Shown here: in pieces, positions 9,627-31,650 of the stretch
How positions within the stretch are numbered: the stretch's first letter is position 1
How the letters are laid out: each line of letters starts with the position of its first letter
Source of the DNA: Amia ocellicauda
Lineage: Eukaryota; Chordata; Actinopteri; Amiiformes; Amiidae
DNA length: 64,000 bases
NCBI RefSeq assembly: GCF_036373705.1
Contig: NC_089851.1
Span: 55,157,940-55,221,939 of the forward strand
Reading direction: 5' to 3'
The notes under the pieces: model-generated
The model's database searches: none
What the model saw: only the letters and a program-made list of their open reading frames with translations
Told to the model about the DNA's origin: nothing
Position numbers and translations under genes: made by a program

Positions 9627-9656
9627 ATTAGGGTTAGGGTTAGGGTTAGGGTTAGG
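9627..9656 (+). repeat. Interstitial telomeric repeat (TTAGGG)n
   Basis: About four TTAGGG units in a row, followed by G/T-rich degenerate sequence up to about 10130. Sequence continues on both sides, so it is interstitial in this assembly. Confidence 0.9.
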
Positions 9657-10130: not shown

Positions 10131-10186
10131 TTTAGGGTTAGGGTTAGGGGTTAGGGGTTAGGGGTTAGGGTTAGGGTTACGGTTAG
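10131..10186 (+). repeat. Interstitial telomeric repeat with TTAGGGG variants
   Basis: TTAGGG and TTAGGGG units lie directly before the first unit of the large satellite. The intervening 9660-10130 is rich in degenerate GGGTTA-like words, so both tracts may belong to one decayed block. Confidence 0.85.
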
Positions 10187-11355
10187 GATCACGGACCACT
10201 GTCAATCAGGTGCTTGCCTTGCCGTCCATCCATCCATCCATCTATCTATCTATCTATCTATCTATGACTCTCGATATCTAACTCTCTTGCTTGCTATCGC
10301 TCCCCCAATGGTCAGTAGCATAGTAGCATAACAGCAGATCAAGAACCACTGTCAATCAGATGCTTGCCTTGCCGTCCATCCATCCATCTATCTATCTATC
10401 TATCTATCTATGACTCTCGATATCTAACTCTCTTGCTTGCTATCGCTCCCCCAATGGTCAGTAGCATTGTAGCATAACAGCAGATCACGGACCACTGTCA
10501 ATCAGATGCTTGCCTTGCCGTCCATACATCCATCCATCTATCTATGACTCTCGATATCTAAATTTCTTCCTTGCTATCGCTCCCCCAATGGTCAGTAGCA
10601 TAGTTGCATAACAGCAGATCACAGACCACTGTCAATCAGATGCTTGCCTTGCCGTCCATCCATCCATCCATCTATCTATCTATGTATCTATGTCTCTCGA
10701 TATCTAACTCTCTTGCTTGCTATCGCTCCCCCAATGGTCAGTAGCATAGTAGCATAACAGCAGATCACGGACCACTGTCAATCAGATGCTTGCCTTGCCG
10801 TCCATCCATCTATCTATCTATCTATCTATGACTCTTGATATCTAACTCTCTTGCTTGCGATCGCTCCCCCAATGGTCAGTAGCATAGTAGCATAACAGCA
10901 GATCACGGACCACTGTCAATCAGATGCTTGCCTTGCCGTCCATCCATCCATCTATCTATCTATCTATCTATGACTCTCGATATCTAACTCTCTTGCTTGC
11001 TATCGCTCCCCCAATGGTCAGTAGCATAGTAGCATTACAGCAGATCAAGAACCACTGTCAATCAGATGCTTGCCTTGCCGTCCATCCATCCATCTATCTA
11101 TCTATCTATCTATGACTCTCGATATCTAACTCTCTTGCTTGCTATCGCTCCCCCAATGGTCAGTAGCATAACAGCAGATCACGGACCACTGTCAATCAGA
11201 TGCTTGCCTTGCCGTCCATCCATCCATCCATCTATCTATCTATGACTATTGATATCTAACTCTCTTGCTTGCTATCGCTCCCCCAATGGTCAGTAGCATA
11301 ACAGCAGATCACGGACCACTGTCAATCAGATGCTTGCCTTGCTGTCCATCCATCC

Positions 11356-11397
<42 letters not shown>

Positions 11398-13702
11398 GAC
11401 TCTCGATATCTAACTCTCTTGCTTGCTATCGCTCCCCCAATGGTCAGTAGCATAGTAGCATAAGAGCAGATCACGGACCACTGTCAATCAGATGCTTGCC
11501 TTGCCGTCCATCCATCCATCTATCTATCTATCTATCTATGACTCTCGATATCTAACTCTCTTGCTTGCTATCGCTCCCCCAATGGTCAGTAGCATAGTAG
11601 CATAACAGCAGTTCACGGACCACTGTCAATCAGATGCTTGCCTTGCCGTCCATCCATCCATCCATGTATCTATCTATCTATCAATGACTCTCGATATCTA
11701 ACTCTCTTGCTTGCTATCGCTCCCCCAATGGTCAGTAGCATAGTAGCATAACAGCAGATCACGGACCACTGTCAATCAGATGCTTGCCTTGCCGTCCATC
11801 CATCTATCTATCTATCTATCTATGACTCTCGATATCTAACTCTCTTGCTTGCTATCGCTCCCCCAATGGTCAGTAGCATAGTAGCATAACAGCAGATCAC
11901 GGACCACTGTCAATCAGGTGCTTGCCTTGCCGTCCATCCATCCATCCATCTATCTATCTATCTATCTATGACTCTCGATATCTAACTCTCTTGCTTGCTA
12001 TCGCTCCCCCAATGGTCAGTAGCATAGTAGCATAACAACAGATCATGGACCACTGTCAATCAGATGCTTGCCTTGCCGTCCATCCATCTATCTATCTATC
12101 TATCCATGACTCTCGATATCTAACTCTCTTGCTTGCTATCGCTCCCCCAATGGTCAGTAGCATAGTAGCATAACAGCAGATCACGGACCACTGTCAATCA
12201 GATGCTTGCCTTGCCGTCCATCCATCCATCTATCTATCTATCTATGACTCTTGATATCTAACTCTCTTGCTTGCTATCGCTCCCCCAATGGTCAGTAGCA
12301 TAGTAGCATAACAGCAGATCACGGACCACTGTCAATCAGATGCTTGCCTTGCCGTCCATCCATCCATCTATCTATCTATCTATCTATGACTCTCGATATC
12401 TAACTCTCTTGCTTGCTATCGCTCCCCCAATGGTCAGTAGCATAGTAGCATAACAGCAGATCACGGACCACTGTCAATCAGATGCTTGCCTTGCCGTCCA
12501 TCCATCTATCTATCTATCTATCTATGACTCTCGATATCTAACTCTCTTGCTTGCTATCGCTCCCCCAATGGTCAGTAGCATAGTAGCATAACAGCAGATC
12601 ACGGACCACTGTCAATCAGATGCTTGCCTTGCCGTCCATCCATCCATCTATCTATCTATGACTCTTGATATCTAACTCTCTTGCTTGCTATCGCTCCCCC
12701 AATGGTCAGTTGCATAGTAGCATAACAGCAGATCACGGACCACTGTCAATCAGATGCTTGCCTTGCCGTCCATCCATCCATCCATCTATCTATCTATCTA
12801 TCAATGACTCTCGATATCTAACTCTCTTGCTTGCTATCGCTCCCCCAATGGTCAGTAGCATAGTAGCATAACAGCAGATCACGGACCACTGTCAATCAGA
12901 TGCTTGCCTTGCCGTCCATCCATCCATCCATCTATCTATCTATGACTCTTGATATCTAACTCTCTTGCTTGCTATCGCTCCCCCAATGGTCAGTAGCATT
13001 GTAGCATAACAGCAGATCACGGACCACTGTCAATCAGATGCTTGCCTTGCCGTCCATCCATCCATCAATCTATCTATCTATCTATGACTCTTGATATCTA
13101 ACTCTCTTGCTTGCTATCGCTCCCCCAATGGTCAGTAGCATTGTAGCATAACAGCAGATCACGGACCACTGTCAATCAGATGCTTGCCTTGCCGTCCATC
13201 CATCCATCTATCTATCTATCAATCTATGACTCTTGATATCTACCTCTCTTGCTTGCTATCGCTCCCCCAATGGTCAGTAGCATAGTAGCAAATCAGCAGA
13301 TCACGGACCACTGTCAATCAGATGCTTGCCTTGCCGTCCATCCATCTATCTATCTATCTATCTATCTATGACTCTCGATATCTAACTCTCTTGCTTGCTA
13401 TCGCTCCCCCAATGGTCAGTAGCATAGTAGTATAACAGCAGATCACGGACCACTGTCAATCAGATGCTTGCCTTGCCGTCCATCCATCCATCTATCTATC
13501 TATCTATCTATCAATGACTCTCGATATCTAACTCTCTTGCTTGCTATCGCTCCCCCAATGGTCAGTAGCATAGTAGCATAACAGCAGATCATGGACCACT
13601 GTCAATCAGATGCTTGCCTTGCCGTCCATCCATCTATCTATCTATCTATCTATGACTCTTGTTATCTAACTCTCTTGCTTGCTATCGCTCCCCCAATGGT
13701 CA
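10187..13702 (+). repeat. Satellite block 1 (about 25 units)
   Basis: Tandem units of 134-160 bp. Each has a constant part starting AGCAGATCACGGACCACTG, a variable core of 2-4 CATC and 3-10 TATC repeats, and a second constant part with CTCTTGCTTGCTATCGCTCC and GGTCAGTAGCATAGTAGC. Most length variation comes from the tetranucleotide core. Short open frames here are repeat translations. Confidence 0.97.
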
Positions 13703-13802
13703 CGTATGTTGCATTCAACGACAAAGAAAATCGTGTGCTGGAAATGATTTTTGGCAACTGTGAAGGAACTGCACGACTGCAGCAAACACAACACCTCTGT
13801 CT

Positions 13803-13876
13803 GTCTCTGTGGCGCAATCGGTCAGCGTGTTTGGCTGTTAACCAAAAGGATGGTGGTTCGAATCCACCCAGGGACG
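13803..13876 (+). tRNA. tRNA-Asn (GTT), cassette 1
   Basis: A 74-nt vertebrate-type tRNA-Asn. Acceptor GTCTCTG pairs with CAGGGAC, the A box is TGGCGCAATCGG, the anticodon GTT is at 13837-13839 and the B box GGTTCGAATCC is intact. The third anticodon-stem pair is T-A where cassette 2 has C-G. A TTTT terminator follows within 10 nt. It folds throughout with one G-T pair in the D stem. Confidence 0.92.
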
Positions 13877-14040
13877 GCCCACTTTTCCCCCCGCCCCTTG
13901 TTATTGTTTCTACTTCTGGCGGTCAGCTTGCCAGACTGCGGCTACAGTAACCTTAAGCTGCTTGCTGCGGACGGCCATCTTGCAAAAATGTATTGAGCGT
14001 TTAGAAACTTCCTTTCTATTGCCTAGGCCAACATAAACCA

Positions 14041-14114
14041 AGGCACTGCTGGGAGTCGAACCCAGGGTTTCCTGTTTACAAGACAGGTGCTTTGACCAAC
14101 TAAGCCACGGTGCC
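14041..14114 (-). tRNA. tRNA-Thr (TGT), cassette 1
   Basis: A 74-nt tRNA-Thr body: D arm GGCTTAGTTGGTC, anticodon TGT at 14080-14078 between CCTGT and ACAGG, and an intact T arm with TTCGACT loop. The acceptor GGCACCG/CAGTGCC has one C-A mismatch at pair 6-67, shared by the other TGT copies. No TTTT follows closely; the first T run is about 60 nt downstream. Confidence 0.88.
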
Positions 14115-14158
14115 AGGACTCTCTCTTTCCCCAGTGCCTACACTCAGGTGTAAGGCAC

Positions 14159-14273
14159 AAAACAAAACAAAACAAAACAAAACAAAACAAAACAAAACAA
14201 AACAAAACAAAACAAAACAAAACAAAACAAAACAAAACAAAACAAAACAAAACAAAACAAAACAAAACAAAAC
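14159..14273 (+). repeat. (AAAAC)23 microsatellite, cassette 1
   Basis: Twenty-three pure AAAAC units, the longest of the five cassette copies. Long frames across it are repeat artefacts. Confidence 0.95.
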
Positions 14274-14502
14274 AAAATCTGGATGCAGGCTGCAACAAAG
14301 GAAGCACACAGAGGTGAAAACGTAAGGTTGAGAGGAGCAACAAGCTCCCTGTTGCGACTGTCCAGGGGCGGCAATGGGAATTGGATGTTGGCCGTAGCGC
14401 GTGACCTTTGGGTTCTGGTTCATCTTTACAAACCGGCGTCTGTCCAGTTGGCTTTCCGGTTCATTACGTCCTCTGATGGCTTTACGATAAGCCTATCTTG
14501 CA

Positions 14503-14608
14503 ATCAGATGCTTGCCTTGCCGTCCATCCATCCATCCATCTATCTATCTATCTATCTATGACTCTCGATATCTAACTCTCTTGCTTGCTATCGCTCCCCC
14601 AATGGTCA
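14503..14608 (+). repeat. Satellite block 2 (single partial unit)
   Basis: One partial satellite unit separates cassettes 1 and 2. It is joined to cassette 1 at AATCAGATGC rather than at the usual exit point, so this border is a separate recombination junction. Confidence 0.9.
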
Positions 14609-14708
14609 CGTATGTTGCATTCAACGACAAAGAAAATCGTGTGCTGGAAATGATTTCTGGCAACTGTGAAGGAACTGCACGACTGCAGCAACCGCAACAC
14701 CTCCGTCT

Positions 14709-14782
14709 GTCTCTGTGGCGCAATCGGTCAGCGCGTTCGGCTGTTAACCGAAAGGATGGTGGTTCGAACCCACCCAGGGACG
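14709..14782 (+). tRNA. tRNA-Asn (GTT), cassette 2
   Basis: The most canonical of the six Asn copies. Acceptor, D, anticodon and T stems all pair, the anticodon GTT is at 14743-14745 with a TTCGG/CCGAA stem, the B box is GGTTCGAACCC, and a TTTT terminator follows. It is the likeliest functional Asn gene here. Confidence 0.95.
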
Positions 14783-14946
14783 GCCCACTTTTCCCCCCGC
14801 CCCTTGTTATTGTTTCTACTTCTGGCGGTCAGCTTGCCAGACTGCGGCTACAGTAACCTTAAGCTGCTTGCTGCGGACGGCCATCTTGCAAAAATGTATC
14901 GAGCGTTTAGAAACTTCCTTTCCATTGCCTAGGCCAACATAAACCA

Positions 14947-15020
14947 AGGCACCGCTGGGATTTGAACCCAGGACCTCCTGTTTACTAGACAGGCGCTTTA
15001 ACCAACTAAGCCTCGGCGCC
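14947..15020 (-). tRNA. tRNA-Thr (AGT), cassette 2
   Basis: A 74-nt tRNA-Thr with anticodon AGT (14986-14984), CCTGT/ACAGG stem and T arm CTGGG/CCCAG. Position 8 is A instead of the conserved T. Its downstream flank is the one that follows tRNA-Thr(TGT) in the other cassettes, marking a crossover between the two Thr genes. Confidence 0.9.
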
Positions 15021-15042
15021 AAATCTGCCGCTGCTGCTGCTG

Positions 15043-18000
15043 ATAGTAGCATAACAGCAGATCACGGACCGCTGTCAATCAGGTGCTTGCCTTGCCGTCC
15101 ATCCATCCATCCATCCATCTATCTATCTATCTATCTGTCTATCTATGACTCTCGATATATAACTCTCTTGCTTGCTATCGCTCCCCCAATGGTCAGTAGC
15201 ATAGTAGCATAACAGCAGATCACGGACCACTGTCAATCAGATGCTTGCCTTGCCATCCATCCATCCATCTATCTATCTATCTATCTATCTATGACTCTCG
15301 ATATCTAACTCTCTTGCTTGCTATCGCTCCCCCAATGGTCAGTAGCATAGTAGCATAACAGCAGTTCACGGACCACTGTCAATCAGATGCTTGCCTTGCC
15401 GTCCATCCATCCATCTATCTATCTATCTATCTATCTATGACTCTCGCTATCTAACTCTCTTGCTTGCTATCGCTCCCCCAATGGTCAGTAGCATAGTAGC
15501 ATAACAGCAGATCACGGACCACTGTCAATCAGATGCTTGCCTTGCCGTCCATCCATCTATATATCTATCGATGACTCTCGATATCTAAATCTCTTGCTTG
15601 CTATCGCTCCCTCAAAGGTCAGTAGCATAGTAGCATAACAGCAGATCACAGACCACTGTCAATCAGATGCTTGCCTTGCCGTCCATCCATCCATCTATCT
15701 ATCTATCTAGCTATGACTCTCGATATCTAACTCTCTTGCATGCTATCGTTCCCCAATGGTCAGTAGCATAGTAGCATAACAGCAGATCACGGACCACTGT
15801 AAATCAGATGCTTGCCTTGCCGTCCATCCATCCATCCATCTATCTATGACTCTCGATATCTAACTCTCTTGCTTGGTATCGCTCCCCCAATGGTCAGTAT
15901 CATTGTAGCATAACAGCAGAACATGGACCACTGTCAATCAGATGCTTGCCTTGCCGTCCATCCATCCATCTATCTATCTATCTATCTATCTATGACTCTC
16001 GATATCTAACTCTCTTGCTTGCTATCGCTCCCCCAATGGTCAGTAGCATTGTAGCATAACAGCAGATCACGGACCACTGTCAATCAGATGCTTGCCTTGC
16101 CGTCCATCCATCCATCTATCTATCTATCTATGACTCTTGATATCTAACTCTCTTGCTTGCTATCGCTCCCCCAATGGTCAGTAGCATAGTAGCATAACAG
16201 CAGATCACGGACCACTGTCAATCAGATGCTTGCCTTGCCGTCCATCCATCTATATATCTATCTATGACTCTCGATATCTAATTCTCTTGCTTGCTATCGC
16301 TCCCTCAATGGTCAGTAGCATAGTAGCATAACAGCAGATCACGGACCACTGTCAATCAGATGCTTGCCTTGCCGTCCATCCATCTATATATCTATCTATG
16401 ACTCTCGATATCTAATTCTCTTGCTTGCTATCGCTCCCTCAATGGTCAGTAGCATAGTAGCATAACAGCAGATCACGGACCACTGTCAATCAGATGCTTG
16501 CCTTGCCGTCCATCCATCCATCTATCTATCTATCTGTCTATGACTCTCGATATCTAACTCTCCTGCTTGCTATCGCTCCCCCAATGGTCAGTAGCATAGT
16601 AGCATAACAGCAGATCACGGACCACTGTCAATCAGATGCTTGCCTTGCCGTCCATCCATCTATATATCTATCTATGACTCTCGATATCTAATTCTCTTGC
16701 TTGCTATCGCTCCCTCAATGGTCAGTAGCATAGTAGCATAACAGCAGATCACGGACCACTGTCAATCAGATGCTTGCCTTGCCGTCCATCCATCCATCTA
16801 TCTATCTATCTGTCTATGACTCTCGATATCTAACTCTCCTGCTTGCTATCGCTCTCCCAATGGTCAGTAGCATAGTAGCATAACATCAGATCACGGACCA
16901 CTGTAAATCAGATGCTTGCCTTGCCGTCCATCCATCCATCCATCTATCTATGACTCTCGATATCTAACTCTCTTGCTTGGTATCGCTCCCCCAATGGTCA
17001 GTATCATTGTAGCATAACAGCAGAACATGGACCACTGTCAATCAGATGCTTGCCTTGCCGTCCATCCATCCATCTATCTATCTATCTATCTATCTATCTA
17101 TGACTCTCGATATCTAACTCTCTTGCTTGCTATCGCTCCCCCAATGGTCAGTAGCATTGTAGCATAACAGCAGATCACGGACCACTGTCAATCAGATGCT
17201 TGCCTTGCCGTCCATCCATCCATCCATCTATCTATCTATCTATCTATGACTCTCGATATCTAACTCTCGTGCTTGCTATCGCTCCCCCAATGGTCAGTAG
17301 CATAGTAGCATAACAGCAGATCACGGACCACTGTCAATCAGATGCTTGCCTTGCCGTCCATCCATCTATATATCTATCTATGACTCTCGATATCTAATTC
17401 TCTTGCTTGCTATCGCTCCCTCAATGGTCAGTAGCATAGTAGCATAACAGCAGATCACGGACCACTGTCAATCAGATGCTTGCCTTGCCGTCCATCCATC
17501 CATCTATCTATCTATCTGTCTATGACTCTCGATATCTAACTCTCCTGCTTGCTATCGCTCCCCCAATGGTCAGTAGCATAGTAGCATAACATCAGATCAC
17601 GGACCACTGTCAATCAGATGCTTGCCTTGCCGTCCATCCATCCATCCATCTATCTATCTATCTATGACTCTTGATATCTAACTCTCTTGCTTGCTATTGC
17701 TACCCCAATGGTCAGTAGAATAGTAGCATATCAGCAGATCATGGACCACAGTCAATCAGATGCTTGCCTTGCCGTCCATCCATCCATCTATCTATCTATC
17801 TATCTATGACTCTCGATATCTAACTCTCTTGCTTGCTATCGCTCCCCCAATGGTCAGTAGCATAGTAGCATAACATCAGATCACGGACCACTGTCAATCA
17901 GATGCTTGCCTTGCCGTCCATCCATCTATCTATCTATCTATCTATCTATCCATCTATCTATCCATCTATCTATGACTCTCGATATCTAACTCTCTTGCTT

Positions 18001-19450
18001 GCTATCGCTCCCCCAATGGTCAGTAGCATAGTAGCATAACAGCAGATCACGGACCACTGTCAATCAGATGCTTGCCTTGCCGTCCATCCATCCATCTATC
18101 TATCTATTTATCTATCTATGACTCTCGATATCTAACTCTCTTGCTTGCTATCGCTTCCCCAATGGTCAGTAGCATAGTAGCATAACATCAGATCACGGAC
18201 CACTGTCAATCAGATGCTTGCCTTGCCGTCCATCCATACATCCATCTATCTATCTATCTATCTATGACTCTCGATATCTAACTCTCTTGCTTGCTATCGC
18301 TCCCCCAATGGTCAGTAGCATAGTAGCATAACAGAAGATCACGGACCACTGTCAATCAGATGCTTGCCTTGCCGTCCATCCATCTATCTATCTATCTATC
18401 TATCTATGACTCTCGATATCTAACTCTCTTGCTTGCTATCGCTCCCCCAATGGTCAGTAGCATAGTAGCATAACATCAGATCACGGACCGCTGTCAATCA
18501 GATGCTTGCCTTGCCGTCCATCCATCCATCTATCTATCTATCTGTCTATGACTCTCGATATCTAACTCTCCTGCTTGCTATCGCTCCCCCAATGGTCAGT
18601 AGCATAGTAGCATAACAGCAGATCACGGACCACTGTCAATCAGATGCTTGCCTTGCCGTCCATCCATCCATCCATCTATCTATCTATCTATGACTCTTGA
18701 TATCTAACTCTCTTGCTTACTATCGCTACCCCAATGGTCAGTAGAATAGTAGCATATCAGCAGATCACGGACCACTGTCAATCAGATGCTTGCCTTGCCG
18801 TCCATCCATCCATCTATCTATCTATCTATCTATGACTCTCGATATCTAACTCTCTTGCTTGCTATCGCTCCCCCAATGGTCAGTAGCATAGTAGCATAAC
18901 TGCAGATCACGGACCACTGTCAATCAGATGCTTGCCTTGCCGTCCATCCATCCATCTATCTATCTATCTATCTATGACTCTTGATATCTAACTCTCTTGC
19001 TTGCTATCGCTCCCCCAATGGTCAGTAGCATTGTAGCATAACAGCAGATCACGGACCACTGTCAATCAGATGCTTGCCTTGCCGTCCTTCCATCCATCTA
19101 TCTATCTATCTATCTATCTATGACTCTCGATATCTAACTCTCTTGCTTGCTATCGCTCCCCCAATGGTCAGTAGCATAGTAGCATAAATGCAGATCACGG
19201 ACCATTGTCAATCAGATGCTTGCCTTGCCGTCCATCCATCCATCTATCTATCTATCTATCTATGACTCTTGATATCTAACTCTCTTGCTTGCTATCGCTC
19301 CCCCAATGGTCAGTAGCATAGTATCATAACAGCAGATCACGGACCACTGTCAATCAGATGCTTGCCTTGCCGTCCATCCATCTATCTATCTATCTATCTA
19401 TGACTCTTGATATCTAACTCTCTTGCTTGCTATCGCTCCCCCAATGGTCA
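15043..19450 (+). repeat. Satellite block 3 (about 31 units)
   Basis: Same satellite, with more unit variants. A CTATATATCTATC core variant recurs near 15546, 16250, 16385, 16665 and 17366, showing that groups of units were copied together as higher-order repeats. Confidence 0.97.
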
Positions 19451-19540
19451 CGTATGTTGCATTCAACGACAAAGAAAATCGTGTGCTGGAAATGATTTTT
19501 GGCAACTGTGAAGGAACTGCACGACTGCAGCAACCACATC

Positions 19541-19614
19541 ATGTCTGTGGCGCAATCGGTCAGCGCGTTTGGCTCCTAACCGAAAGGATGGTGGTTCGAA
19601 TCCACCCAGGGACG
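19541..19614 (+). tRNA. tRNA-Asn-derived copy with CCT (Arg) anticodon, cassette 3
   Basis: The body is tRNA-Asn with intact A box and B box (GGTTCGAATCC), but the loop reads CTCCTAA, giving anticodon CCT at 19575-19577 (an Arg AGG reader by anticodon). The 5' acceptor strand is ATGTCTG, which mismatches the 3' strand CAGGGAC at pairs 1 and 3 because of a small 5' deletion. It is probably a tRNA pseudogene, although Pol III promoter elements and terminator remain. Confidence 0.85.
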
Positions 19615-19778
19615 GCCTGCTTTTCCCCCCGCCCCTTGTTATTTTTTCTACTTCTGGCGGTCAGCTTGCCAGACTGCGGCTACAGTAACCTTAAGCTGCT
19701 TGCTGCGGACGGCCGTCGTGCAAAAATGTATTGAGCGTTTAGAGACTTCCTTTCCATTGCCTAGGCCAACATAAACCA

Positions 19779-19852
19779 AGGCACTGCTGGGAGTCAAACT
19801 CAGGGTTTCCTGTTTACAAGACAGGCGCTTTGACCAACTAAGCCACGGTGCC
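19779..19852 (-). tRNA. tRNA-Thr (TGT), degenerate, cassette 3
   Basis: Same tRNA-Thr(TGT) body as in cassette 1, with changes in the T arm (stem mismatch and loop TTTGACT) that weaken the B box. Probably a pseudogene. Confidence 0.82.
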
Positions 19853-19896
19853 AGGACTCTCCCATTCCCCAGTGCCTACACTCAGGTGTAAGGCAC

Positions 19897-20001
19897 AAAA
19901 CAAAACAAAACAAAACAAAACAAAACAAAACAAAACAAAACAAAACAAAACAAAACAAAACAAAACAAAACAAAACAAAACAAAACAAAACAAAACAAAA
20001 C
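19897..20001 (+). repeat. (AAAAC)21 microsatellite, cassette 3
   Basis: Twenty-one AAAAC units at the same cassette position as in cassette 1. Confidence 0.95.
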
Positions 20002-20291
20002 AAAATCTGGATGCAGGCTGCAACAAAGGAAGCACACAGAGGTGAAAACGTAAGGTTGACGGGAGCAACAAGCTCCCTGTTGCGACTGTCCAGGGGCGGT
20101 AATGGGAATTGGACGTTGGCCGTAGCGCGTGTCCTTTGGGTTCTGGTTCTTCTTTACAAACCGGTGTCTGTCCAGTTGGCTTTCCGGTTCATTACGTCCT
20201 CTGATGGCTTTACGATAAGCCTATCTTGCTAAAACTGATGGTCGACAAAGCGGAAGCACAAGCTTCGCAAGGAGCACAGAAAGCCCGCCTA

Positions 20292-20365
20292 AGGCACCGC
20301 TGGGATTTGAACCCAGGACCTCCTGTTTACTAGACAGGCGCTTTAACCAACTGAGCCACGGCGCC
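20292..20365 (-). tRNA. tRNA-Thr (AGT), cassette 3
   Basis: A 74-nt tRNA-Thr(AGT): acceptor GGCGCCG/CGGTGCC, T8 conserved, anticodon AGT, T arm intact with TTCAAAT loop. It has one C-A opposition in the D stem. A plausible functional gene, though no T run lies close downstream. Confidence 0.92.
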
Positions 20366-20388
20366 AAACCTGCAGCTGCTGCTGCTGA

Positions 20389-22733
20389 TAGTAGCATAAC
20401 AGCAGATCACGGACCGCTGTCAATCAGGTTCTTGCCTTGCCGTCCATCCATCCATCCATCTATCTATGACTCTCAATATCTAACTCTCTTGCTTGCTTTC
20501 TCTCCCCCAATGGTCAGTAGCATAGTAGCATAACAGCAGATCACGGACCACTGTCAATCAGGTGCTTGCCTTGCCGTCCATCCATCTATCTATCTATCTA
20601 TCTATGACTCTTGATATCTAACTCTCTTGCTTATTATTGCTCCCCCAATGGTCAGTAGCATAGTAGCATAACAGCAGATCACGGACCACTGTCAATCAGA
20701 TGCTTGCCTTGCCGTCCATCCATCCATCCATCTATCTATCTATCTATCTATGACTCTCGATATCTAACTCTCTTGCTTGCTATCGCTCCCCCAATGGTCA
20801 GTAGCATAGTAGCATAACTGCAGATCACGGACCACTGTCAATCAGATGGTTGCCTTGCCGTCCATCCATCCATCTATCTATCTATCTATCTATCTATGAC
20901 TCTTGATATCTAACTCTCTTGCTTGCTATCGCTCCCCCAATGGTCAGTAGCATTGTAGCATAACAGCAGATCACGGACCACTGTCAATCAGATGCTTGCC
21001 TTGCCGTCCATCCATCCATCTATCTATCTATCTATCTATGACTCTCGATATCTAACTCTCTTGCTTGCTATCGCTCCCCCAATGGTCAGTAGCATAGTAG
21101 CATAACAGCAGATCACGGACCACTGTCAATCAGATGCATGCCTTGCCGTCCATCCATCCATCCATCCATCTATCTATCTATCAATGACTCTCGATATCTA
21201 ACTCTCTTGCTTGCTATCGCTCCCCCAATGGTCAGTAGCATAGTAGCATAACAGCAGATCACGGACCACTGTCAATCAGATGCTTGCCTTACCGTCCATC
21301 CATCCATCCATCTATCTATCTATCTATCAATGACTCTCGATATCTAACTCTCTTGCTTGCTATCGCTCCCCCAATGGTCAGTAGCATAGTAGCATAACTG
21401 CAGATCACGGACCACTGTCAATCAGATGGTTGCCTTGCCGTCCATCCATCCATCTATCTATCTATCTATCTATGACTCTTGATATCTAACTCTCTTGCTT
21501 GCTATCGCTCCCCCAATGGTCAGTAGCATTGTAGCATAACAGCAGATCACGGACCACTGTCAATCAGATGCTTGCCTTGCCGTCCATCCATCCATCTATC
21601 TATCTATCTATCTATGACTCTCGATATCTAACTCTCTTGCTTGCTATCGCTCCCCCAATGGTCAGTAGCATAGTAGCATAACAGCAGATCACGGACCACT
21701 GTCAATCAGATGCATGCCTTGCCGTCCATCCATCCATCCATCTATCTATCTATCAATGACTCTCGATATCTAACTCTCTTGCTTGCTATCGCTCCCCCAA
21801 TGGTCAGTAGCATAGTAGCATAACAGCAGATCACGGACCACTGTCAATCAGATGCTTGCCTTACCGTCCATCCATCCATCCATCTATCTATCTATCTATC
21901 AATGACTCTCGATATCTAACTCTCTTGCTTGCTATCGCTCCCCCAATGGTCAGTAGCATAGTAGCATAACAGCAGATCACGGACCACTGTCAATCAGATG
22001 CTTGCCTTGCCGTCCATCCATCCATCCATCTATCTATCTATCAATGACTCTCGATATCTAACTCTCTTGCTTGCTATCGCTCCCCCAATGGTCAGTAGCA
22101 TAGTAGCATAACAGCAGATCACGGACCACTGTCAATCAGATGCTTGCCTTACCGTCCATCCATCCATCCATCTATCTATCTATCTATCAATGACTCTCGA
22201 TATCTAACTCTCTTGCTTGCTATCGCTCCCCCAATGGTCAGTAGCATAGTAGCATAACAGCAGATCACGGACCACTGTCAATCAGATGCTTGCCTTGCCG
22301 TCCATCCATCCATCTATCTATCTATCTATGACTCTCGATATCTAACTCTCTTGCTTGCTATCGCTCCCCCAATGGTCAGTAGCATAGTAGCATAACAGCA
22401 GATCACGGACCACTGTCAATCAGGTGCTTGCCTTGCCGTCCATTCATCCATCTATCTATCTATCTATCTATGACTCTCGATATCTAACTCTCTTGCTTGC
22501 TATCGCTCCCCCAATGGTCAGTAGCATTGTAGCATAACAGCAGATCACGGACCACTGTCAATCAGATGCTTGCCTTGCCGTCCATCCATCCATCTATCTA
22601 TCTATCTATCTATGACTCTCGATATCTAACTCTCTTGCTTGCTATCGCTCCCCCAATGGTCAGTAGCATAGTAGCATAACAGCAGATCACGGACCACTGT
22701 CAATCAGATGCTTGCCTTGCCGTCCATCCATCC

Positions 22734-22783
<50 letters not shown>

Positions 22784-24114
22784 GACTCTTGATATCTAAC
22801 TCTCTTGCTTGCTATCGCTCCCCCAATGGTCAGTAGCATAGTAGCATAACATCAGATCACGGACCACTGTCAATCAGATGCTTGCCTTGCCGTCCATCCA
22901 TCCATCCATCTATCTATCTATCTATCAATGACTCTCGATATCTAACTCTCTTGCTTGCTATCGCTCCCCCAATGGTCAGTAGCATAGTAGCATAACAGCA
23001 GATCACGGACCACTGTCAATCAGATGCTTGCCTTGCCGTCCATCCATCCATCCATCTATCTATCTATGACTCTTGATATCTAACTCTCTTGCTTGCTATC
23101 GCTCCCCCAATGGTCAGTAGCATTGTAGCATAACAGCAGATCACGGACCACTGTCAATCAGATGCTTGCCTTGCCGTCCATCCATCCATCTATCTATCTA
23201 TCTATCTATCTATGACTCTCGATATCTAACTCTCTTGCTTGCTATCGCTCCCCCAATGGTCAGTAGCATAGTAGCATAACAGCAGATCACGGACCACTGT
23301 CAATCAGATGCTTGCCTTGCCGTCCATCCATCCATCTATCTATCTATCTATCTATCTATGACTCTTGATATCTAACTCTCTTGCTTGCTATCGCTCCCCC
23401 AATGGTCAGTAGCATAGTAGCATAACATCAGATCACGGACCACTGTCAATCAGATGCTTGCCTTGCCGTCCATCCATCCATCCATCTATCTATCTATCTA
23501 TCAATGACTCTCGATATCTAACTCTCTTGCTTGCTATCGCTCCCCCAATGGTCAGTAGCATAGTAGCATAACAGCAGATCACGGACCACTGTCAATCAGA
23601 TGCTTGCCTTGCCGTCCATCCATCCATCCATCTATCTATCTATGACTCTTGATATCTAACTCTCTTGCTTGCTATCGCTCCCCCAATGGTCAGTAGCATT
23701 GTAGCATAACAGCAGATCACGGACCACTGTCAATCAGATGCTTGCCTTGCCGTCCATCCATCCATCTATCTATCTATCTATCTATGACTCTCGATATCTA
23801 ACTCTCTTGCTTGCTATCGCTCCCCCAATGGTCAGTAGCATAGTAGCATAACAGCAGATCACGGACCACTGTCAATCAGATGCTTGCCTTGCTGTCCATC
23901 CATCTATCTATCTATCTATCTATCAATGACTCTCGATATCTAACTCTCTTGCTTGTTATCGCTCCCCCAATGGTCAGTAGCATAGTAGCATAACAGCAGA
24001 TCACGGACCACTGTCAATCAGATGCTTGCCTTGCCGTCCATCCATCTATCTATCTATCTATCTATGACTCTTGATATCTAACTCTCTTGCTTGCTATCGC
24101 TCCCCCAATGGTCA
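20389..24114 (+). repeat. Satellite block 4 (about 26 units)
   Basis: Same satellite. Four-unit higher-order repeats of about 580 bp are visible: the GATGGTTGCC variant at 20843 and 21423, the GATGCATGCC variant at 21131 and 21711, and the CCTTACCGTCC variant near 21289, 21861 and 22149. Confidence 0.97.
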
Positions 24115-24204
24115 CGTATGTTGCATTCAACGACAAAGAAAATCGTGTGCTGGAAATGATTTTTGGCAACTGTGAAGGAACTGCACGACTGCAGCAACCA
24201 CATC

Positions 24205-24278
24205 ATGTCTGTGGCGCAATCGGTCAGCGCGTTTGGCTCTTAACCGAAAGGATGGTGGTTCGAATCCACCCAGGGACG
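24205..24278 (+). tRNA. tRNA-Asn-derived copy with CTT (Lys) anticodon, cassette 4
   Basis: Asn body with loop CTCTTAA, giving anticodon CTT at 24239-24241 (a Lys AAG reader by anticodon). It shares the damaged 5' acceptor strand ATGTCTG with cassettes 3 and 5. The A box, B box and TTTT terminator are kept. Probably a pseudogene, possibly transcribed. Confidence 0.85.
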
Positions 24279-24442
24279 GCCTGCTTTTCCCCCCGCCCCT
24301 TGTTATTTTTTCTACTTCTGGCGGTCAGCTTGCCAGACTGCGGCTACAGTAACCTTAAGCTGCTTGCTGCGGACGGCCGTCGTGCAAAAATGTATTGAGC
24401 GTTTAGAAACTTCCTTTCCATTGCCTAGGCCAACATAAACCA

Positions 24443-24516
24443 AGGCACTGCTGGGAGTCCAACCCAGGGTTTCCTGTTTACAAGACAGGCGCTTTGACCA
24501 ACTAAGCCACGGTGCC
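24443..24516 (-). tRNA. tRNA-Thr (TGT), degenerate, cassette 4
   Basis: tRNA-Thr(TGT) body with T loop TTGGACT, which replaces the conserved C of the B box. Probably a pseudogene. Confidence 0.82.
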
Positions 24517-24560
24517 AGGACTCTCCCATTCCCCAGTGCCTACACTCAGGTGTAAGGCAC

Positions 24561-24650
24561 AAAACAAAACAAAACAAAACAAAACAAAACAAAACAAAAC
24601 AAAACAAAACAAAACAAAACAAAACAAAACAAAACAAAACAAAACAAAAC
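24561..24650 (+). repeat. (AAAAC)18 microsatellite, cassette 4
   Basis: Eighteen AAAAC units. Confidence 0.95.
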
Positions 24651-24940
24651 AAAATCTGGATGCAGGCTGCAACAAAGGAAGCACACAGAGGTGAAAACGT
24701 AAGGTTGACGGGAGCAACAAGCTCCCTGTTGCGACTGTCCAGGGGCGGTAATGGGAATTGGATGTAGGCCGTAGCGCGTGTCCTTAGGGTTTTGGTTCTT
24801 CTGTACAATCCGGCGTCTGTCCAGTTGGCTTTCCGGTTCATTACGTCCTCTGATGGCTTTACGATAAGCCTATCTTGCTAAAACTGATGGTCGACAAAGC
24901 GGAAGCACAAGCTTCGCAAGGAGCACAGAAAGCCCGCCTA

Positions 24941-25014
24941 AGGCACCGCTGGGATTTGAACCCAGGACCTCCTGTTTACTAGACAGGCGCTTTAACCAAC
25001 TGAGCCACGGCACC
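24941..25014 (-). tRNA. tRNA-Thr (AGT), cassette 4
   Basis: As the cassette 3 copy but with acceptor GGTGCCG, which gives a T-G pair at 3-70. Otherwise it folds as a standard tRNA-Thr(AGT). Confidence 0.9.
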
Positions 25015-25038
25015 AAATCTGCAGCTGCTGCTGCTGAT

Positions 25039-25875
25039 AGTAGCATAACAGCAGATCACGGACCACTGTCAATCAGGAGCTTGCCTTGCCGTCCATCCAT
25101 CCATCTATCTATCTATGACTCTCAATATCTAACTCTCTTGCTTGCTATCGCTCCCCCAATGGTCAGTAGCATAGTAGCATAACAGCAGATCACGGACCAC
25201 TGTCAATCAGGAGCTTGCCTTGCCGTCCATCCATCCATCTATCTATCTATCTATCTATGACTCTCGATATCTAACTCTCTTGCTTGCTATCGCTCCCCCA
25301 ATGGTCAGTAGCATAGTAGCATAACAGCAGATCACGGACCACTGTCAATCAGATGCTTGCCTTGCCGTCCATCCATCCATCTATCTATCTATCTATCTAT
25401 GACTCTCGATATCTAACTCTCTTGCTTGCTATCGCTCCCCCAATGGTCAGTAGCATAGTAGCATAACAGCAGATCATGGACCACTGTCAATCAGATGCTT
25501 GCCTTGCCGTCCATCCATCCATCTATCTATCTATCTATCTATCTATGACTCTTGATATCTAACTCTCTTGCTTGCTATCGCTCCCCCAATGGTCAGTAGC
25601 ATAGTAGCATAACATCAGATCACGGACCACTGTCAATCAGATGCTTGCCTTGCTGTCCATCCATCTATCTATCTATCTATCTATCAATGACTCTCGATAT
25701 CTAACTCTCTTGCTTGTTATCGCTCCCCCAATGGTCAGTAGCATAGTAGCATAACAGCAGATCACGGACCACTGTCAATCAGATGCTTGCCTTGCCGTCC
25801 ATCCATCTATCTATCTATCTATCTATGACTCTTGATATCTAACTCTCTTGCTTGCTATCGCTCCCCCAATGGTCA
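25039..25875 (+). repeat. Satellite block 5 (6 units)
   Basis: Six units between cassettes 4 and 5. The first four, including the CAATCAGGAGCTTGCC variants, recur in the same order at the start of block 6, so block and cassette were duplicated as a piece of about 1.75 kb. Confidence 0.97.
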
Positions 25876-25965
25876 CGTATGTTGCATTCAACGACAAAGA
25901 AAATCGTGTGCTGGAAATGATTTTTGGCAACTGTGAAGGAACTGCACGACTGCAGCAACCACATC

Positions 25966-26039
25966 ATGTCTGTGGCGCAATCGGTCAGCGCGTTTGGCTC
26001 TTAACCGAAAGGATGGTGGTTTGAATCCACCCAGGGACG
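25966..26039 (+). tRNA. tRNA-Asn-derived copy with CTT (Lys) anticodon, cassette 5
   Basis: Near-identical to the cassette 4 copy, with anticodon CTT at 26000-26002 and acceptor ATGTCTG. Its B box is further changed to GGTTTGAATCC, so it is the most decayed Asn-type copy. Confidence 0.83.
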
Positions 26040-26203
26040 GCCTGCTTTTCCCCCCGCCCCTTGTTATTTTTTCTACTTCTGGCGGTCAGCTTGCCAGACT
26101 GCGGCTACAGTAACCTTAAGCTGCTTGCTGCGGACGGCCGTCGTGCAAAAATGTATTGAGCGTTTAGAAACTTCCTTTCCATTGCCTAGGCCAACATAAA
26201 CCA

Positions 26204-26277
26204 AGGCACTGCTGGGAGTCCAACCCAGGGTTTCCTGTTTACAAGACAGGCGCTTTGACCAACTAAGCCACGGTGCC
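26204..26277 (-). tRNA. tRNA-Thr (TGT), degenerate, cassette 5
   Basis: Same T-loop change (TTGGACT) as the cassette 4 copy, consistent with recent duplication of the whole cassette. Probably a pseudogene. Confidence 0.82.
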
Positions 26278-26321
26278 AGGACTCTCCCATTCCCCAGTGC
26301 CTACACTCAGGTGTAAGGCAC

Positions 26322-26391
26322 AAAACAAAACAAAACAAAACAAAACAAAACAAAACAAAACAAAACAAAACAAAACAAAACAAAACAAAAC
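26322..26391 (+). repeat. (AAAAC)14 microsatellite, cassette 5
   Basis: Fourteen AAAAC units. Confidence 0.95.
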
Positions 26392-26681
26392 AAAATCTGG
26401 ATGCAGGCTGCAACAAAGGAAGCACACAGAGGTGAAAACGTAAGGTTGACGGGAGCAACAAGCTCCCTGTTGCGACTGTCCAGGGGCGGCAATGGGAATT
26501 GGATGTTGGCCGTAGCGCGTGTCCTTTAGGTTCTGGTTCTTCTGTACAATCCGGCGTCTGTCCAGTTGGCTTTCCGGTTCATTACGTCCTCTGATGGCTT
26601 TACGATAAGCCTATCTTGCTAAAACTGATGATCGACAAAGCGGAAGCACAAGCTTCGCAAGGAGCACAGAAAGCCCGCCTA

Positions 26682-26755
26682 AGGCACCGCTGGGATTTGA
26701 ACCCAGGACCTCCTGTTTACTAGACAGGCGCTTTAACCAACTGAGCCACGGCGCC
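26682..26755 (-). tRNA. tRNA-Thr (AGT), cassette 5
   Basis: Canonical 74-nt tRNA-Thr(AGT), matching the cassette 3 copy including acceptor GGCGCCG/CGGTGCC. Confidence 0.92.
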
Positions 26756-26778
26756 AAATCTGCAGCTGCTGCTGCTGA

Positions 26779-29700
26779 TAGTAGCATAACAGCAGATCAC
26801 GGACCACTGTCAATCAGGAGCTTGCCTTGCCGTCCATCCATCCATCTATCTATCTATGACTCTCAATATCTAACTCTCTTGCTTGCTATCGCTCCCCCAA
26901 TGGTCAGTAGCATAGTAGCATAACAGCAGATCACGGACCACTGTCAATCAGGAGCTTGCCTTGCCGTCCATCCATCCATCTATCTATCTATCTATCTATG
27001 ACTCTCGATATCTAACTCTCTTGCTTGCTATCGCTCCCCCAATGGTCAGTAGCATAGTAGCATAACAGCAGATCACGGACCACTGTCAATCAGATGCTTG
27101 CCTTGCCGTCCATCCATCCATCTATCTATCTATCTATCTATGACTCTCGATATCTAACTCTCTTGCTTGCTATCGCTCCCCCAATGGTCAGTAGCATAGT
27201 AGCATAACAGCAGATCATGGACCACTGTCAATCAGATGCTTGCCTTGCCGTCCATCCATCCATCTATCTATCTATCTATCTATCTATGACTCTTGATATC
27301 TAACTCTCTTGCTTGCTATCGCTCCCCCAATGGTCAGTAGCATAGTAGCATAACATCAGATCACGGACCACTGTCAATCAGATGCTTGCCTTGCCGTCCA
27401 TCCATCCATCTATCTATCTATCTATCTATGACTCTCGATATCTAACTCTCTTGCTTGCTATCGCTCCCCCAATGGTCAGTAGCATAGTAGCATAACAGCA
27501 GATCACGGACCACTGTCAATCAGATGCTTGCCTTGCCGTCCATCCATCCATCCATCTATCTATCTATGACTCTTGATATCTAACTCTCTTGCTTGCTATC
27601 GCTCCCCCAATGGTCAGTAGCATAGTAGCATAACAGCAGATCACGGACCACTGTCAATCAGATGCTTGCCTTGCCGTCCATCCATCTATCTATCTATCTA
27701 TCTATGACTCTTGATATCTAACTCTCTTGCTTGCTATCGCTCCCCCAATGTTCAGTAGCATAGTAGCATAACAGCAGATCACGGACCACTGTCAATCAGG
27801 TGCTTGCCTTGCCGTCCATCCATCCATCCATCCATCTATCTATCAATCTATCTATGACTCTTGATATCTAACTCTCTTGCTTGCTATCGCTCCCCCAATG
27901 GTCAGTTGCATAGTAGCATAACAGCAGATCACGGACCACTGTCAATCAGATGCTTGCCTTGCCGTCCATCCATCCATCCATCTATCTATCTATCTATCAA
28001 TGACTCTCGATATCTAACTCTCTTGCTTGCTATCGCTCCCCCAATGGTCAGTAGCATAGTAGCATAACAGCAGATCACGGACCACTGTCAATCAGATACT
28101 TGCCTTGCCGTCCATCCATCTATCGATCTATCTATCTATAACTCTTGATATCTAACTCTCTTGCTTGCTATCGCTCCCCCAATGGTCAGTAGCATAGAAG
28201 CATAACAGCAGATCGCGGACCACTGTCAATCAGATGCTTGCCTTGCCGTCCATCCATCCATCCATCTATCTATCTATCTATCAATGACTCTCGATATCTA
28301 ACTCTCTTGCTTGTTATCGCTCCCCCAATGGTCAGTAGCGTAGTAGCATAACAGCAGATCACGGACCACTGTCAATCAGATGCTTGCCTTGCCGTCCATC
28401 CATCTATCTATCTATCTATCTATGACTCTTGATATCTAACTCTCTTGCTTGCTATCGCTCCCCCAATGTTCAGTAGCATAGTAGCATAACAGCAGATCAC
28501 GGACCACTGTCAATCAGGTGCTTGCCTTGCCGTCCATCCATCCATCTATCTATCTATCTATCTATGACTCTTGATATCTAACTCTCTTGCTTGCTATCGC
28601 TCCCCCAATGGTCAGTAGCATTGTAGCATAACAGCAGATCACGGACCACTGTCAATCAGATGCGTGCCTTGCCGTCCATCCATCCATCCATCTATCTATC
28701 TATCTATCAATGACTCTCGATATCTAACTCTCTTGCTTGCTATCGCTCCCCCAATGGTCAGTAGCATAGTAGCATAACAGCAGATCACGGACCACTGTCA
28801 ATCAGATGCTTGCCTTGCCGTCCATCCATCTATCTATCTATCTATCTATCTATGACTCTCGATATCTAACTCTCTTGCTTGCTATCGCTCCCCCAATGGT
28901 CAGTAGCATAGTAGCATAACAGCAGATCACGGACCACTGTCAATCAGGTGCTTGCCTTGCCGTCCATCCATCCATCTATCTATCTATCTATCTATGACTC
29001 TTGATATCTAACTCTCTTGCTTGCTATCGCTCCCCCAATGGTCAGTAGCATTGTAGCATAACAGCAGATCACGGACCACTGTCAATCAGATGCGTGCCTT
29101 GCCGTCCATCCATCCATCCATCTATCTATCTATCTATCAATGACTCTCGATATCTAACTCTCTTGCTTGCTATCGCTCCCCCAATGGTCAGTAGCATAGT
29201 AGCATAACAGCAGATCACGGACCACTGTCAATCAGATGCTTGCCTTGCCGTCCATCCATCTATCTATCTATCTATCTATCTATGACTCTCGATATCTAAC
29301 TCTCTTGCTTGCTATCGCTCCCCCAATGGTCAGTAGCATAGTAGCATAACAGCAGATCACGGACCACTGTCAATCAGATACTTGCCTTGCCGTCCATCCA
29401 TCTATCGATCTATCTATCTATAACTCTTGATATCTAACTCTCTTGCTTGCTATCGCTCCCCCAATGGTCAGTAGCATAGTAGCATAACAGCAGATCACGG
29501 ACCACTGTCAATCAGATGCTTGCCTTGCCGTCCATCCATCCATCCATCTATCTATCTATCTATCTATGACTCTTGATATCTAACTCTCTTGCTTGCTATC
29601 GCTCCCCCAATGGTCAGTAGCATAGTAGCATAACAGCAGATCACGGACCACTGTCAATCAGATGCTTGCCTTGCCGTCCATCCATCCATCCATCTATCTA

Positions 29701-30049
29701 TCTATCTATCAATGACTCTCGATATCTAACTCTCTTGCTTGCTATCGCTCCCCCAATGGTCAGTAGCATAGTAGCATAACAGCAGATCACGGACCACTGT
29801 CAATCAGGTGCTTGCTTGCCGTCCATCCATCCATCCATCTATCTATCTATCTATCTATGACTCTTGATATCTAACTCTCTTGCTTGCTATCGCTCCCCCA
29901 ATGGTCAGTAGCATTGTAGCATAACAGCAGATCACGGACCACTGTCAATCAGATACTTGCCTTGCTGTCCATCCATCTATCTATCTATCTATCTATCTAT
30001 GACTCTCGATATCTAACTCTCTTGCTTGCTATCGCTCCCCCAATGGTCA
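26779..30049 (+). repeat. Satellite block 6 (about 23 units)
   Basis: Same satellite, with higher-order copies: the GATGCGTGCC variant at about 28660 and 29090, and the GATACTTGCC plus TATCGATC variants near 28095-28125 and 29378-29408. Confidence 0.97.
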
Positions 30050-30149
30050 CGTATGTTGCATTCAACGACAAAGAAAATCGTGTGCTGGAAATGATTTTTG
30101 GCAATTGTGAAGGAACTGGACGACTGCAGCAACCACAACACCTCTGTAT

Positions 30150-30223
30150 GTCTCTGTGGCGCAATCGGTCAGCACGTTTGGCTGTTAACCGAAAGGATGG
30201 TGGTTCGAATCCACCCAGGTACG
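30150..30223 (+). tRNA. tRNA-Asn (GTT), cassette 6
   Basis: Asn body with anticodon GTT at 30184-30186 and intact B box. The 5' acceptor GTCTCTG faces CAGGTAC, giving one C-T mismatch, and the D stem has one mismatch. The anticodon-stem pair 29-41 is T-G. Functional status is uncertain. Confidence 0.87.
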
Positions 30224-30387
30224 GCCCACTTTTCCCCCCGCCCCTTGTTATTGTTTCTACTTCTGGCGGTCAGCTTGCCAGACTGCGGCTACAGTAACCT
30301 TAAGCTGCTTGCTGCGGACGGCCATCTTGCAAAAATGTATTGATCGTTTAGAAACTTCCTTTCCATTGCCTAGGCCAACATAAACCA

Positions 30388-30461
30388 AGGCACTGCTGGG
30401 AGTCGAACCCAGGGTTTCCTGTTTACAAGACAGGCGCTTTGACCAACTAAGCCACGGTGCC
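30388..30461 (-). tRNA. tRNA-Thr (TGT), cassette 6
   Basis: tRNA-Thr(TGT) with the conserved TTCGACT T loop, as in cassette 1, and the family-wide acceptor C-A mismatch. Confidence 0.87.
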
Positions 30462-30505
30462 AGGACTCTCCCATTCCCCAGTGCCTACACTCAGGCGTAA
30501 GGCAC

Positions 30506-30570
30506 AAAACAAAACAAAACAAAACAAAACAACACAAAACAAAACAAAACAAAACAAAACAAAACAAAAC
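30506..30570 (+). repeat. (AAAAC)13 microsatellite, cassette 6
   Basis: Thirteen units, one of them the variant AACAC at 30531-30535. Confidence 0.95.
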
Positions 30571-30860
30571 AAAATCTGGATGCAGGCTGCAACAAAGGAA
30601 GCACACAGAGGTGAAAACATAAGGTTGACGGGAGCAACAAGCTCCCTGTTGCGACTGTCCAGGGGCGGCAATGGGAATTGGATGTTGGCCGTAGCGCGTG
30701 TCCTTTGGGTTCTGGTTCTTCTTTACAAACCGGCGTCTGTCCAGTTGGCTTTCCGGTTCATTACGTCCTCTGATGGCTTTACGATAAGCCTATCTTGCTA
30801 AAACTGATGGTCGACAAAGCGGAAGCACAAGCTTCGCAAGGAGCACAGAAAGCCCGCCTA

Positions 30861-30934
30861 AGGCACCGCTGGGATTTGAACCCAGGACCTCCTGTTTACT
30901 AGACAGGCACTTTAACCAACTGAGCCACGGCGCC
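30861..30934 (-). tRNA. tRNA-Thr (AGT), cassette 6
   Basis: tRNA-Thr(AGT) with one D-stem change (AAAGTGCC for AAAGCGCC). Otherwise as the cassette 3 copy. Confidence 0.88.
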
Positions 30935-30959
30935 AAATCTGCTGCTGCTGCTGATAGTA

Positions 30960-31650
30960 GCATACCCCACCGGGTACCACTCATCTCCACTACAAATAGG
31001 AAAAAGAGGCTACAATTTGCACAAGCTCACCAAAATTGGACAGTTGAAGACTGAAAAAATGTTGCCTGGTCTGATGAGTCTCGATTTCTGTTGAGACATT
31101 CAGATGGTAGAGTCAGAATTTGGCGTAAACAGAATGAGAACATGGATCCATCATGCCTTGTTACCACTGTGCAGGCTGGTGGTGGTGGTGTAATGGTGTG
31201 GGGGATGTTTTCTTGGCACACTTTATGCCCCTTATTGCCAATTGGGCATCGTTTAAATGCCACGGCCTACCTGAGCATTGTTTCTGACCATGTCCATCCC
31301 TTTATGACCACCATGTACCCATCCTCTGATGGCTACTTCCAGCAGGATAATGCACCATGTCACAAAGGTCGAATCATTTCAAATTGGTTTCTTGAACATG
31401 ACAATGAGTTCACTGTACTAAACTGGCCCCCACAGTTACCAGATCTCAGCCCAATAGAGCATCTTTGGGATGTGGTGGAACGGGAGCTTTGTGCCCTGGA
31501 TGTGCATCCCACAAATCTCCATCAATTGCAAGATGCTATCCTATCAATATGGGCCAACATTTCTAAAGAATGCTTTCAGCACCTTGTTGAATCAATGCCA
31601 CGTAGAATTAAGGCAGTTCTGAAGGCAAAAGTGGGTCAAACACCAAGTGA
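30960..31650 (+). mobile_element. Tc1/mariner transposase fragment (DD36E type)
   Basis: The frame covers the catalytic two thirds of a transposase: WSDESRF (first D at 31073), QQDNAPCH (D at 31346) and LSPIEHLWD (E at 31457). Thirty-six residues separate the last two, as in the DD36E (Incomer) group. One in-frame TGA at 31052-31054 replaces an expected Trp codon. The 5' part with the DNA-binding domain is absent: the fragment starts at the satellite edge near 30960. The 3' inverted repeat is also absent. An inactive, doubly truncated copy. Confidence 0.9.

Follow-up and report, generated by a model that had tools for sequence, protein, structure and literature searches.

Transfer RNA (tRNA) genes arranged in tandem repeats are already known from Entamoeba, human 1q23.3, Arabidopsis and maize, as documented in the available parts of the sources, and we compare those systems here with a locus of Amia ocellicauda. 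The locus lies within a 64,000-nucleotide stretch of contig NC_089851.1 (positions 55,157,940 to 55,221,939 of the forward strand; the window, below), where six cassettes of tRNA-like genes, C1 to C6, occupy a fixed phase in an array of a 142-bp satellite. At human 1q23.3, a uniform 7.3-kb repeat carries tRNA genes in every copy and resembles the cassettes in having several genes per repeat, on both strands, together with simple repeats and an expectation of unequal exchange (PMC4041453), whereas here only 6 cassettes occur among 112 unit starts. In Entamoeba, short tandem repeats likewise lie between tRNA genes that undergo tandem homogenisation, but the regular units amount to most of the organism's tRNA genes (PMC2652664); ours are irregularly placed cassettes with decaying genes. 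The maize repeat tRNASAT_ZM is also a satellite array linked with tRNA sequence (PMC10335936), although, to judge by its name, the tRNA belongs to the satellite itself, whereas two of our satellite units (304 bases) gave no Rfam match at E up to 5. An Arabidopsis tRNA-Cys cluster consists of repeating units with tRNA genes and a pseudogene, in a copy number that varies by ecotype, but its 0.4-kb units each hold a tRNA gene and have no carrier satellite, a word that occurs 0 times in the available text (PMC10701932). Among fishes, 65% and 87% of tRNA genes (tDNAs) in zebrafish and stickleback are clustered, with pseudogenes among them and with Thr(AGT or TGT) genes in a figure example, but there too "satellite" occurs 0 times in the text available (PMC2888827). 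Higher-order repeats of the alpha-satellite type have in common with our locus that blocks of several units are copied whole (PMC8122249), whereas here this concerns one block with its cassette in an irregular, gene-carrying array. Among the titles and abstract openings listed from the open-licence literature, none describes tRNA cassettes at a fixed phase in a short satellite.

The reading that we favour, with a probability of roughly 0.7, is that all the cassettes trace back to a single founding junction, which was copied together with satellite units by unequal in-register exchange, the genes being carried along as passengers. At that junction a tRNA block (Asn, Thr-TGT, Thr-AGT) would have been joined to one unit of the 142-bp satellite, after which unequal exchange between units in register would have copied or deleted blocks that happened to hold a cassette. 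Exchange of aligned units would leave the entry point fixed to one base while altering the spacing by whole units; units further off would gradually be replaced, such that likeness between flanks would fade with distance; and the tRNA genes would share in the satellite's gains and losses, with a rate of change close to that of the spacers. The arrangement is real and unusual, and ordinary satellite exchange suffices for it, with no need of a new mechanism. Amplification of cassette plus flanking units by unequal exchange had been proposed in a first-pass annotation of this DNA, and the fixed phase, a tandem duplication of C4 as C5 and collinear upstream flanks lend it partial support.

The entry point lies directly after AATGGTCA and is identical to the base in all six cassettes, as that annotation had stated, and the irregular start-to-start spacings that it gave from C1 to C6 (906, 4842, 4664, 1761 and 4174 bp) were reproduced exactly. 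Its common exit for all but the first cassette held in part: C2 to C5, four of the six, leave at the complete motif TAGTAGCATAACAGCAG, but C6 keeps 10 of the 17 bases (TAGTAGCATA), beyond which a Tc1-like fragment begins. C1 is cut short inside the cassette, with the satellite unit resuming at AATCAGATGC, and C2 has lost the middle of the cassette through a deletion fused at AAGGCAC, a motif common to its two Thr genes. Lengths are 799 bp for C1, 435 bp for C2 and 903–938 bp for C3 to C6; these last four hold three tRNA genes in one order, and C1 and C2 each lack one (Table 1). Comparison of filled with empty units indicates that GTAGC (5 bases) was lost, or that nothing was lost if the founder had a one-copy tail, as do 2 of the 112 units. 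In the parts of the window flanking the array, no cassette copies were found beyond ACAAA-like and short weak matches.

The satellite units run head-to-tail throughout, one of them 5'-truncated, and a 22-base satellite anchor had no minus-strand match. Unit length ranges over 130–170 bp (mostly 134–146), with differences largely in 4-bp steps and an ATCT/ATCC microsatellite inside the unit. Mean divergence between units, calculated for 110 of the 112 over 89 bases that exclude the microsatellite, is 2.8%, and neighbouring units are no closer to each other than distant ones. Before C1 the array runs for about 3.5 kb free of cassettes, and all tRNA hits within the array are confined to the cassettes. 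The array contains nine exact repeats of at least 300 bp, six of them purely of satellite units, as against a mean of 2.6 and a maximum of 5 in 30 shuffles of unit order. In a search for the satellite's source, satellite-like matches in the window's flanks centred on microsatellites, and in a search for relatives two exact 39-base patterns gave 0 matches in viral contigs.

C4 and C5 arose as a tandem duplication of one cassette and six satellite units: the six consecutive unit cores are identical, and stretches of 641, 406 and 373 bp recur exactly between the two blocks, 1741, 1761 and 1761 bp apart, the 20-bp difference corresponding to four ACAAA units. A block of several units was copied whole here, as in a satellite higher-order repeat, and that term, which the first-pass annotation had used for the array, fits this one duplication with its cassette and not the array as a whole. 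A regular higher-order repeat of about 4.7 kb was ruled out by comparing unit order between the long inter-cassette intervals, which are not whole copies of one another, and the block does not recur regularly through the array, where none of the unit lags from 1 to 39 is conspicuous. Of ten block pairs compared, three had scores reached by at most 1 of 200 shuffles: C4–C5 with C5–C6, which is the duplication itself, and C2–C3 with C4–C5 and with C5–C6, both of which reflect a five-unit stretch before C3. That stretch is all that the C2–C3 and C5–C6 intervals have in common (1/200 shuffles).

Likeness between flanks was measured on the five units before C1, C3, C4, C5 and C6; C2, preceded by the truncated C1, was excluded. 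Taken in register, these upstream units have a mean distance of 24.6 (P = 0.0010, 0.0014 and 0.0020 in three runs with random anchor sets; P = 0.0042 without C4). With the anchors moved 3 units upstream P was 0.05, and at 6–15 units it was 0.70–0.84. All six pairs among C1, C3, C4 and C5 fall in the lowest 0.2–2.8% of 4861 position pairs, and the post hoc subset of C1, C3 and C5 gave 0/5000. A local alignment of unit order that was blind to the cassettes matched the five units before C5 to the five before C3, in register (0/200 shuffles). Downstream, the pair percentiles are 0.06% for C4–C5, 2.8% for C3–C5 and 8% for C3–C4, and variant G10A occurs in only 3 of the 112 units, namely the first after each of C3, C4 and C5, the same clade that the cassettes form. 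Small P values from the first single-neighbour tests (A24G in 4/4 units after cassettes, P = 0.00016; unit type before them, P = 0.00016) were discounted because the C4/C5 duplicates had been counted as independent and the features had been chosen after looking; A24G is found in 14 of the 112 units altogether, and in 3% of draws three units taken at random have some variant in common.

Several results weigh against joint descent of cassettes and flanks. The idea for the five-unit test came from an earlier alignment, and its P values are thus not fully independent. Its signal is carried by microsatellite length (P = 0.0018); single-nucleotide variants alone do not reach significance upstream (P = 0.07; 0.24 without C4). 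The four upstream pairs involving C6 are unremarkable (16th–48th percentile), the trio C1, C4 and C6 is not significantly alike upstream (P = 0.12), and the units that follow C2 are unlike any others (94th–97th percentile). Single units adjoining the cassettes, with C5 omitted, are no more alike than random ones (P = 0.49 upstream, 0.95 downstream), although two upstream offsets of the 12 compared, −3 and −4, gave P = 0.006 and 0.03. Unit order shows no homology between the C2–C3 and C3–C4 intervals or between C3–C4 and C5–C6 (scores reached by 179 and 198 of 200 shuffles). Finally, the test of matching trees that had been proposed as support for co-amplification, made here as a rank correlation between cassette distances and flank distances, gave 0.20, which is not significant (exact P = 0.27).

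The first-pass annotation would have taken such a mismatch as a refutation. Its force was gauged by simulating in-register exchange in a simple model, which was matched to the divergence seen here and whose mutation weighting is approximate. With mean blocks of 2 units, 150 of 4264 runs were accepted without conversion and 150 of 2193 with conversion; with 5 units, 14 of 4469 and 19 of 3551; long blocks were never accepted (10 units, 0 of 4042 and 0 of 3730). In accepted runs, units adjacent to cassettes had a median divergence of 0.80–0.87 of background without conversion and 0.86–1.07 with it, and the upstream ratio observed, 0.90, was reached or exceeded in 39–53% of them. Since simulated upstream ratios are like the observed one, a mismatch of trees is expected under co-amplification and does not refute it; the matching-tree test has little power by this simulation. 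The observed downstream ratio of 1.87, which comes from three cassettes, was reached in only 0–2% of runs and counts on the other side.

Among the cassettes, C3, C4 and C5 form a clade (13, 13 and 8 pairwise differences over 903–923 bases) marked by eight shared substitutions and by a 10-column alignment gap that removes the first base of the Asn gene; a single column unites C3 with C4 against C5. C1 and C6 differ from this clade at 24–26 positions and from each other at 20. The distance of C2 (35–42 differences) is overstated, its Thr(AGT) gene having been aligned against Thr(TGT), and C2 may be the least changed cassette, because it has CG at four sites that read TG or CA in the other cassettes, including one in the Asn stem when set against the canonical stem. 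Excluding C2, cassette divergence is 0.9–3.4%; with units at 2.8%, satellite and cassettes therefore appear, as judged from divergence, to be turning over on a like time scale, in keeping with the earlier suggestion that the tRNA genes are aged by satellite dynamics.

The cassettes contain 16 tRNA-like genes, scoring 51.9–70.6 bits against a gathering score of 29: six Asn-like genes on the plus strand and, on the minus strand, five Thr(TGT) and five Thr(AGT) genes. The first-pass description of six cassettes with tRNA-Asn and tRNA-Thr genes stands as to cassettes and genes but needs qualifying for Asn, as the GTT anticodon is present in only three of the six (C1, C2 and C6), with CCT in C3 and CTT in C4 and C5. 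Scored by what we take to be the box B consensus, four of the 16 genes have lost the pattern, namely the Thr(TGT) genes of C3 to C5 together with the Asn-like gene of C5. A TTTT run follows 7 bases past the Asn-like gene in 6/6 cases and 53–58 bases past the Thr genes in 10/10. Counted across C1 and C3 to C6, variable columns make up 13/221 in tRNA genes versus 32/604 in spacers (P = 0.73), with 5/193 versus 24/544 at non-CpG columns (P = 0.39) and 8/28 versus 8/60 at CpG columns (P = 0.14). Genes and spacers being equally variable, purifying selection on the tRNA genes as a set is not evident, in a comparison of five related copies that has little power.

These patterns bear directly on whether selection keeps the array, either to maintain tRNA dosage or through an effect of the tRNA genes on chromatin that stabilises the satellite. 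We regard this as very improbable, even though box B is kept in all five Thr(AGT) genes, the anticodon stem of the C1 Asn gene is altered on both sides with its pairing kept (TTTGG/CCAAA, versus TTCGG/CCGAA in C2), and CTCF is bound to the human 1q23.3 tRNA repeats, according to the available part of the source (PMC4041453). Apart from the equal variability of genes and spacers, both overall and at non-CpG columns, the lineage with the block duplication (C3 to C5) holds all four broken box B patterns and all three changed anticodons; this concentration favours passive hitch-hiking over selection for dosage, and damaged genes in a duplicated lineage speak mildly against selection in general. 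Hardly credible is a history of independent insertions at a sequence-specific target, as by a transposon, or an artefact of assembly. A target base that is the same in every copy would suit either. However, comparison of filled and empty units showed no target-site duplication, no cassette contains a transposase-like open reading frame (ORF) of at least 120 amino acids, and the cassettes nest by shared changes while differing by point changes and short-tandem-repeat length. By simple arithmetic, six equal phases would arise from random independent insertion into a 142-bp unit with a chance of about (1/142)^5.

Two further histories would leave the phase intact. Circles or broken ends carrying a cassette with satellite arms could have re-inserted by homologous recombination, and rolling-circle copying with re-insertion has been proposed for satellite spread, in the part of the source available (PMC8122249); the little flank that C2 and C6 have in common with other cassettes would fit as well. 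We nonetheless consider this improbable, as C4 and C5 are adjacent copies with both flanks shared, which is what local exchange predicts. Alternatively, a tandem tRNA array may have come first, a piece of its spacer expanding into the satellite, with exchange proceeding afterwards as in our favoured reading. Nothing in the window shows the order of origin, and simple repeats lie in the spacers of known tandem tRNA arrays in Entamoeba (PMC2652664) and human (PMC4041453), as far as those sources are available; yet some 3.5 kb of cassette-free satellite before C1 and the irregular spacing of the remaining cassettes make this order of events rather unlikely. The common junction, the C4/C5 duplication, the in-register likeness of the upstream flanks and the equal variability of tRNA genes and spacers are observed directly; we infer a single origin of the junction, its spread by unequal exchange and the absence of selection.

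A feature that ordinary exchange accounts for less well is found on the exit side. The units immediately following C2, C3 and C4 have on average 4.0 variants, versus 1.30 in the rest (P = 0.0005, by sampling; a post hoc test with n = 3, C5 omitted), and the units before cassettes show no such excess (1.75, P = 0.26). Perhaps cassettes shield the adjoining unit from exchange or conversion, possibly through bound RNA polymerase III factors, forming an internal "edge" at which old variants survive. That the cassettes act on the array in this way, and that Asn-bodied tRNA genes bearing Lys- or Arg-type anticodons, and perhaps transcribed, are being spread by the satellite, seems to us a distinctly doubtful proposition.

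If descent from one founding junction is correct, the locus would offer a small natural archive, where gene copies and the surrounding satellite can be dated against each other and where gain, decay and loss of tRNA genes could be put down to satellite turnover instead of selection on translation. The number of clustered tRNA genes and pseudogenes varies widely among fish genomes, in the available part of the survey (PMC2888827), and passive carriage by satellites would be one cause of such differences. Fixed phase, a blurred flank tree and irregular spacing can all arise from one process, and a tree mismatch is therefore unfit to reject co-amplification.

Table 1. Positions in the window of the satellite array, its cassettes and the features at its edges.
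Feature	Position	Strand	Remarks
142-bp satellite array	10187..30964	+	112 unit starts; 6 tRNA cassettes within
C1, truncated	13703..14501	+	Asn(GTT), Thr(TGT); without Thr(AGT) and exit
C2, internal deletion	14609..15043	+	Asn(GTT), Thr(AGT); full exit motif
C3	19451..20388	+	Asn-like (anticodon CCT); Thr(TGT), box B broken; Thr(AGT)
C4	24115..25037	+	Asn-like (anticodon CTT); Thr(TGT), box B broken; Thr(AGT)
C5	25876..26778	+	Asn-like (anticodon CTT), box B broken; Thr(TGT), box B broken; Thr(AGT)
C6	30050..30954	+	Asn(GTT), Thr(TGT), Thr(AGT); exit incomplete, ending after TAGTAGCATA
Block duplication, first copy	23855..25653	+	C4, two units upstream, four downstream; exact repeats, six identical unit cores
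Block duplication, second copy	25616..27394	+	C5; exact repeats, six identical unit cores
First satellite units after C2, C3, C4 and C5	15060, 20405, 25054, 26795		
TTAGGG repeats adjoining left edge of array	10132..10187	+	
Tc1-like transposon fragment (DDE_3), right edge of array	30965..31783	+	Boundaries by eye

At the array's edges, the ORF of the Tc1-like fragment matches the DDE_3 domain only, and a second short interstitial TTAGGG tract lies at 9628–9660. Outside the array, an 89-base tRNA gene on the minus strand (7885–7973, 59.4 bits), whose anticodon was left undecided by ARAGORN, reads as a putative intron-bearing tRNA-Tyr. A tRNA-Leu(TAA)-like gene (51883–51965, 46.7 bits) sits between the integrase ORF and the right terminal repeat of an element of about 10.8 kb at 41838–52646. 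This element has terminal inverted repeats (619 aligned bases, 87%), a piece of type B DNA polymerase (PF03175) and a retrovirus-type integrase (PF00665), and we take it, by resemblance, to be Polinton/adintovirus-like. A Tc1/Sleeping Beauty-like transposon with inverted repeats occupies 60532–62086, its transposase in two ORF pieces (PF25787, PF01498, PF13358), and an integrase zinc-binding domain at 323–850 (PF17921, E = 6.1e-20) is part of a retroelement at the window's left end. The ORF at 5537–5968, perhaps repeat-borne, has 91% identity to Amia ocellicauda protein P0002 over 54% of the query, and the other named matches among 12 (salmonids, Betta, moray) reach 46–61%.

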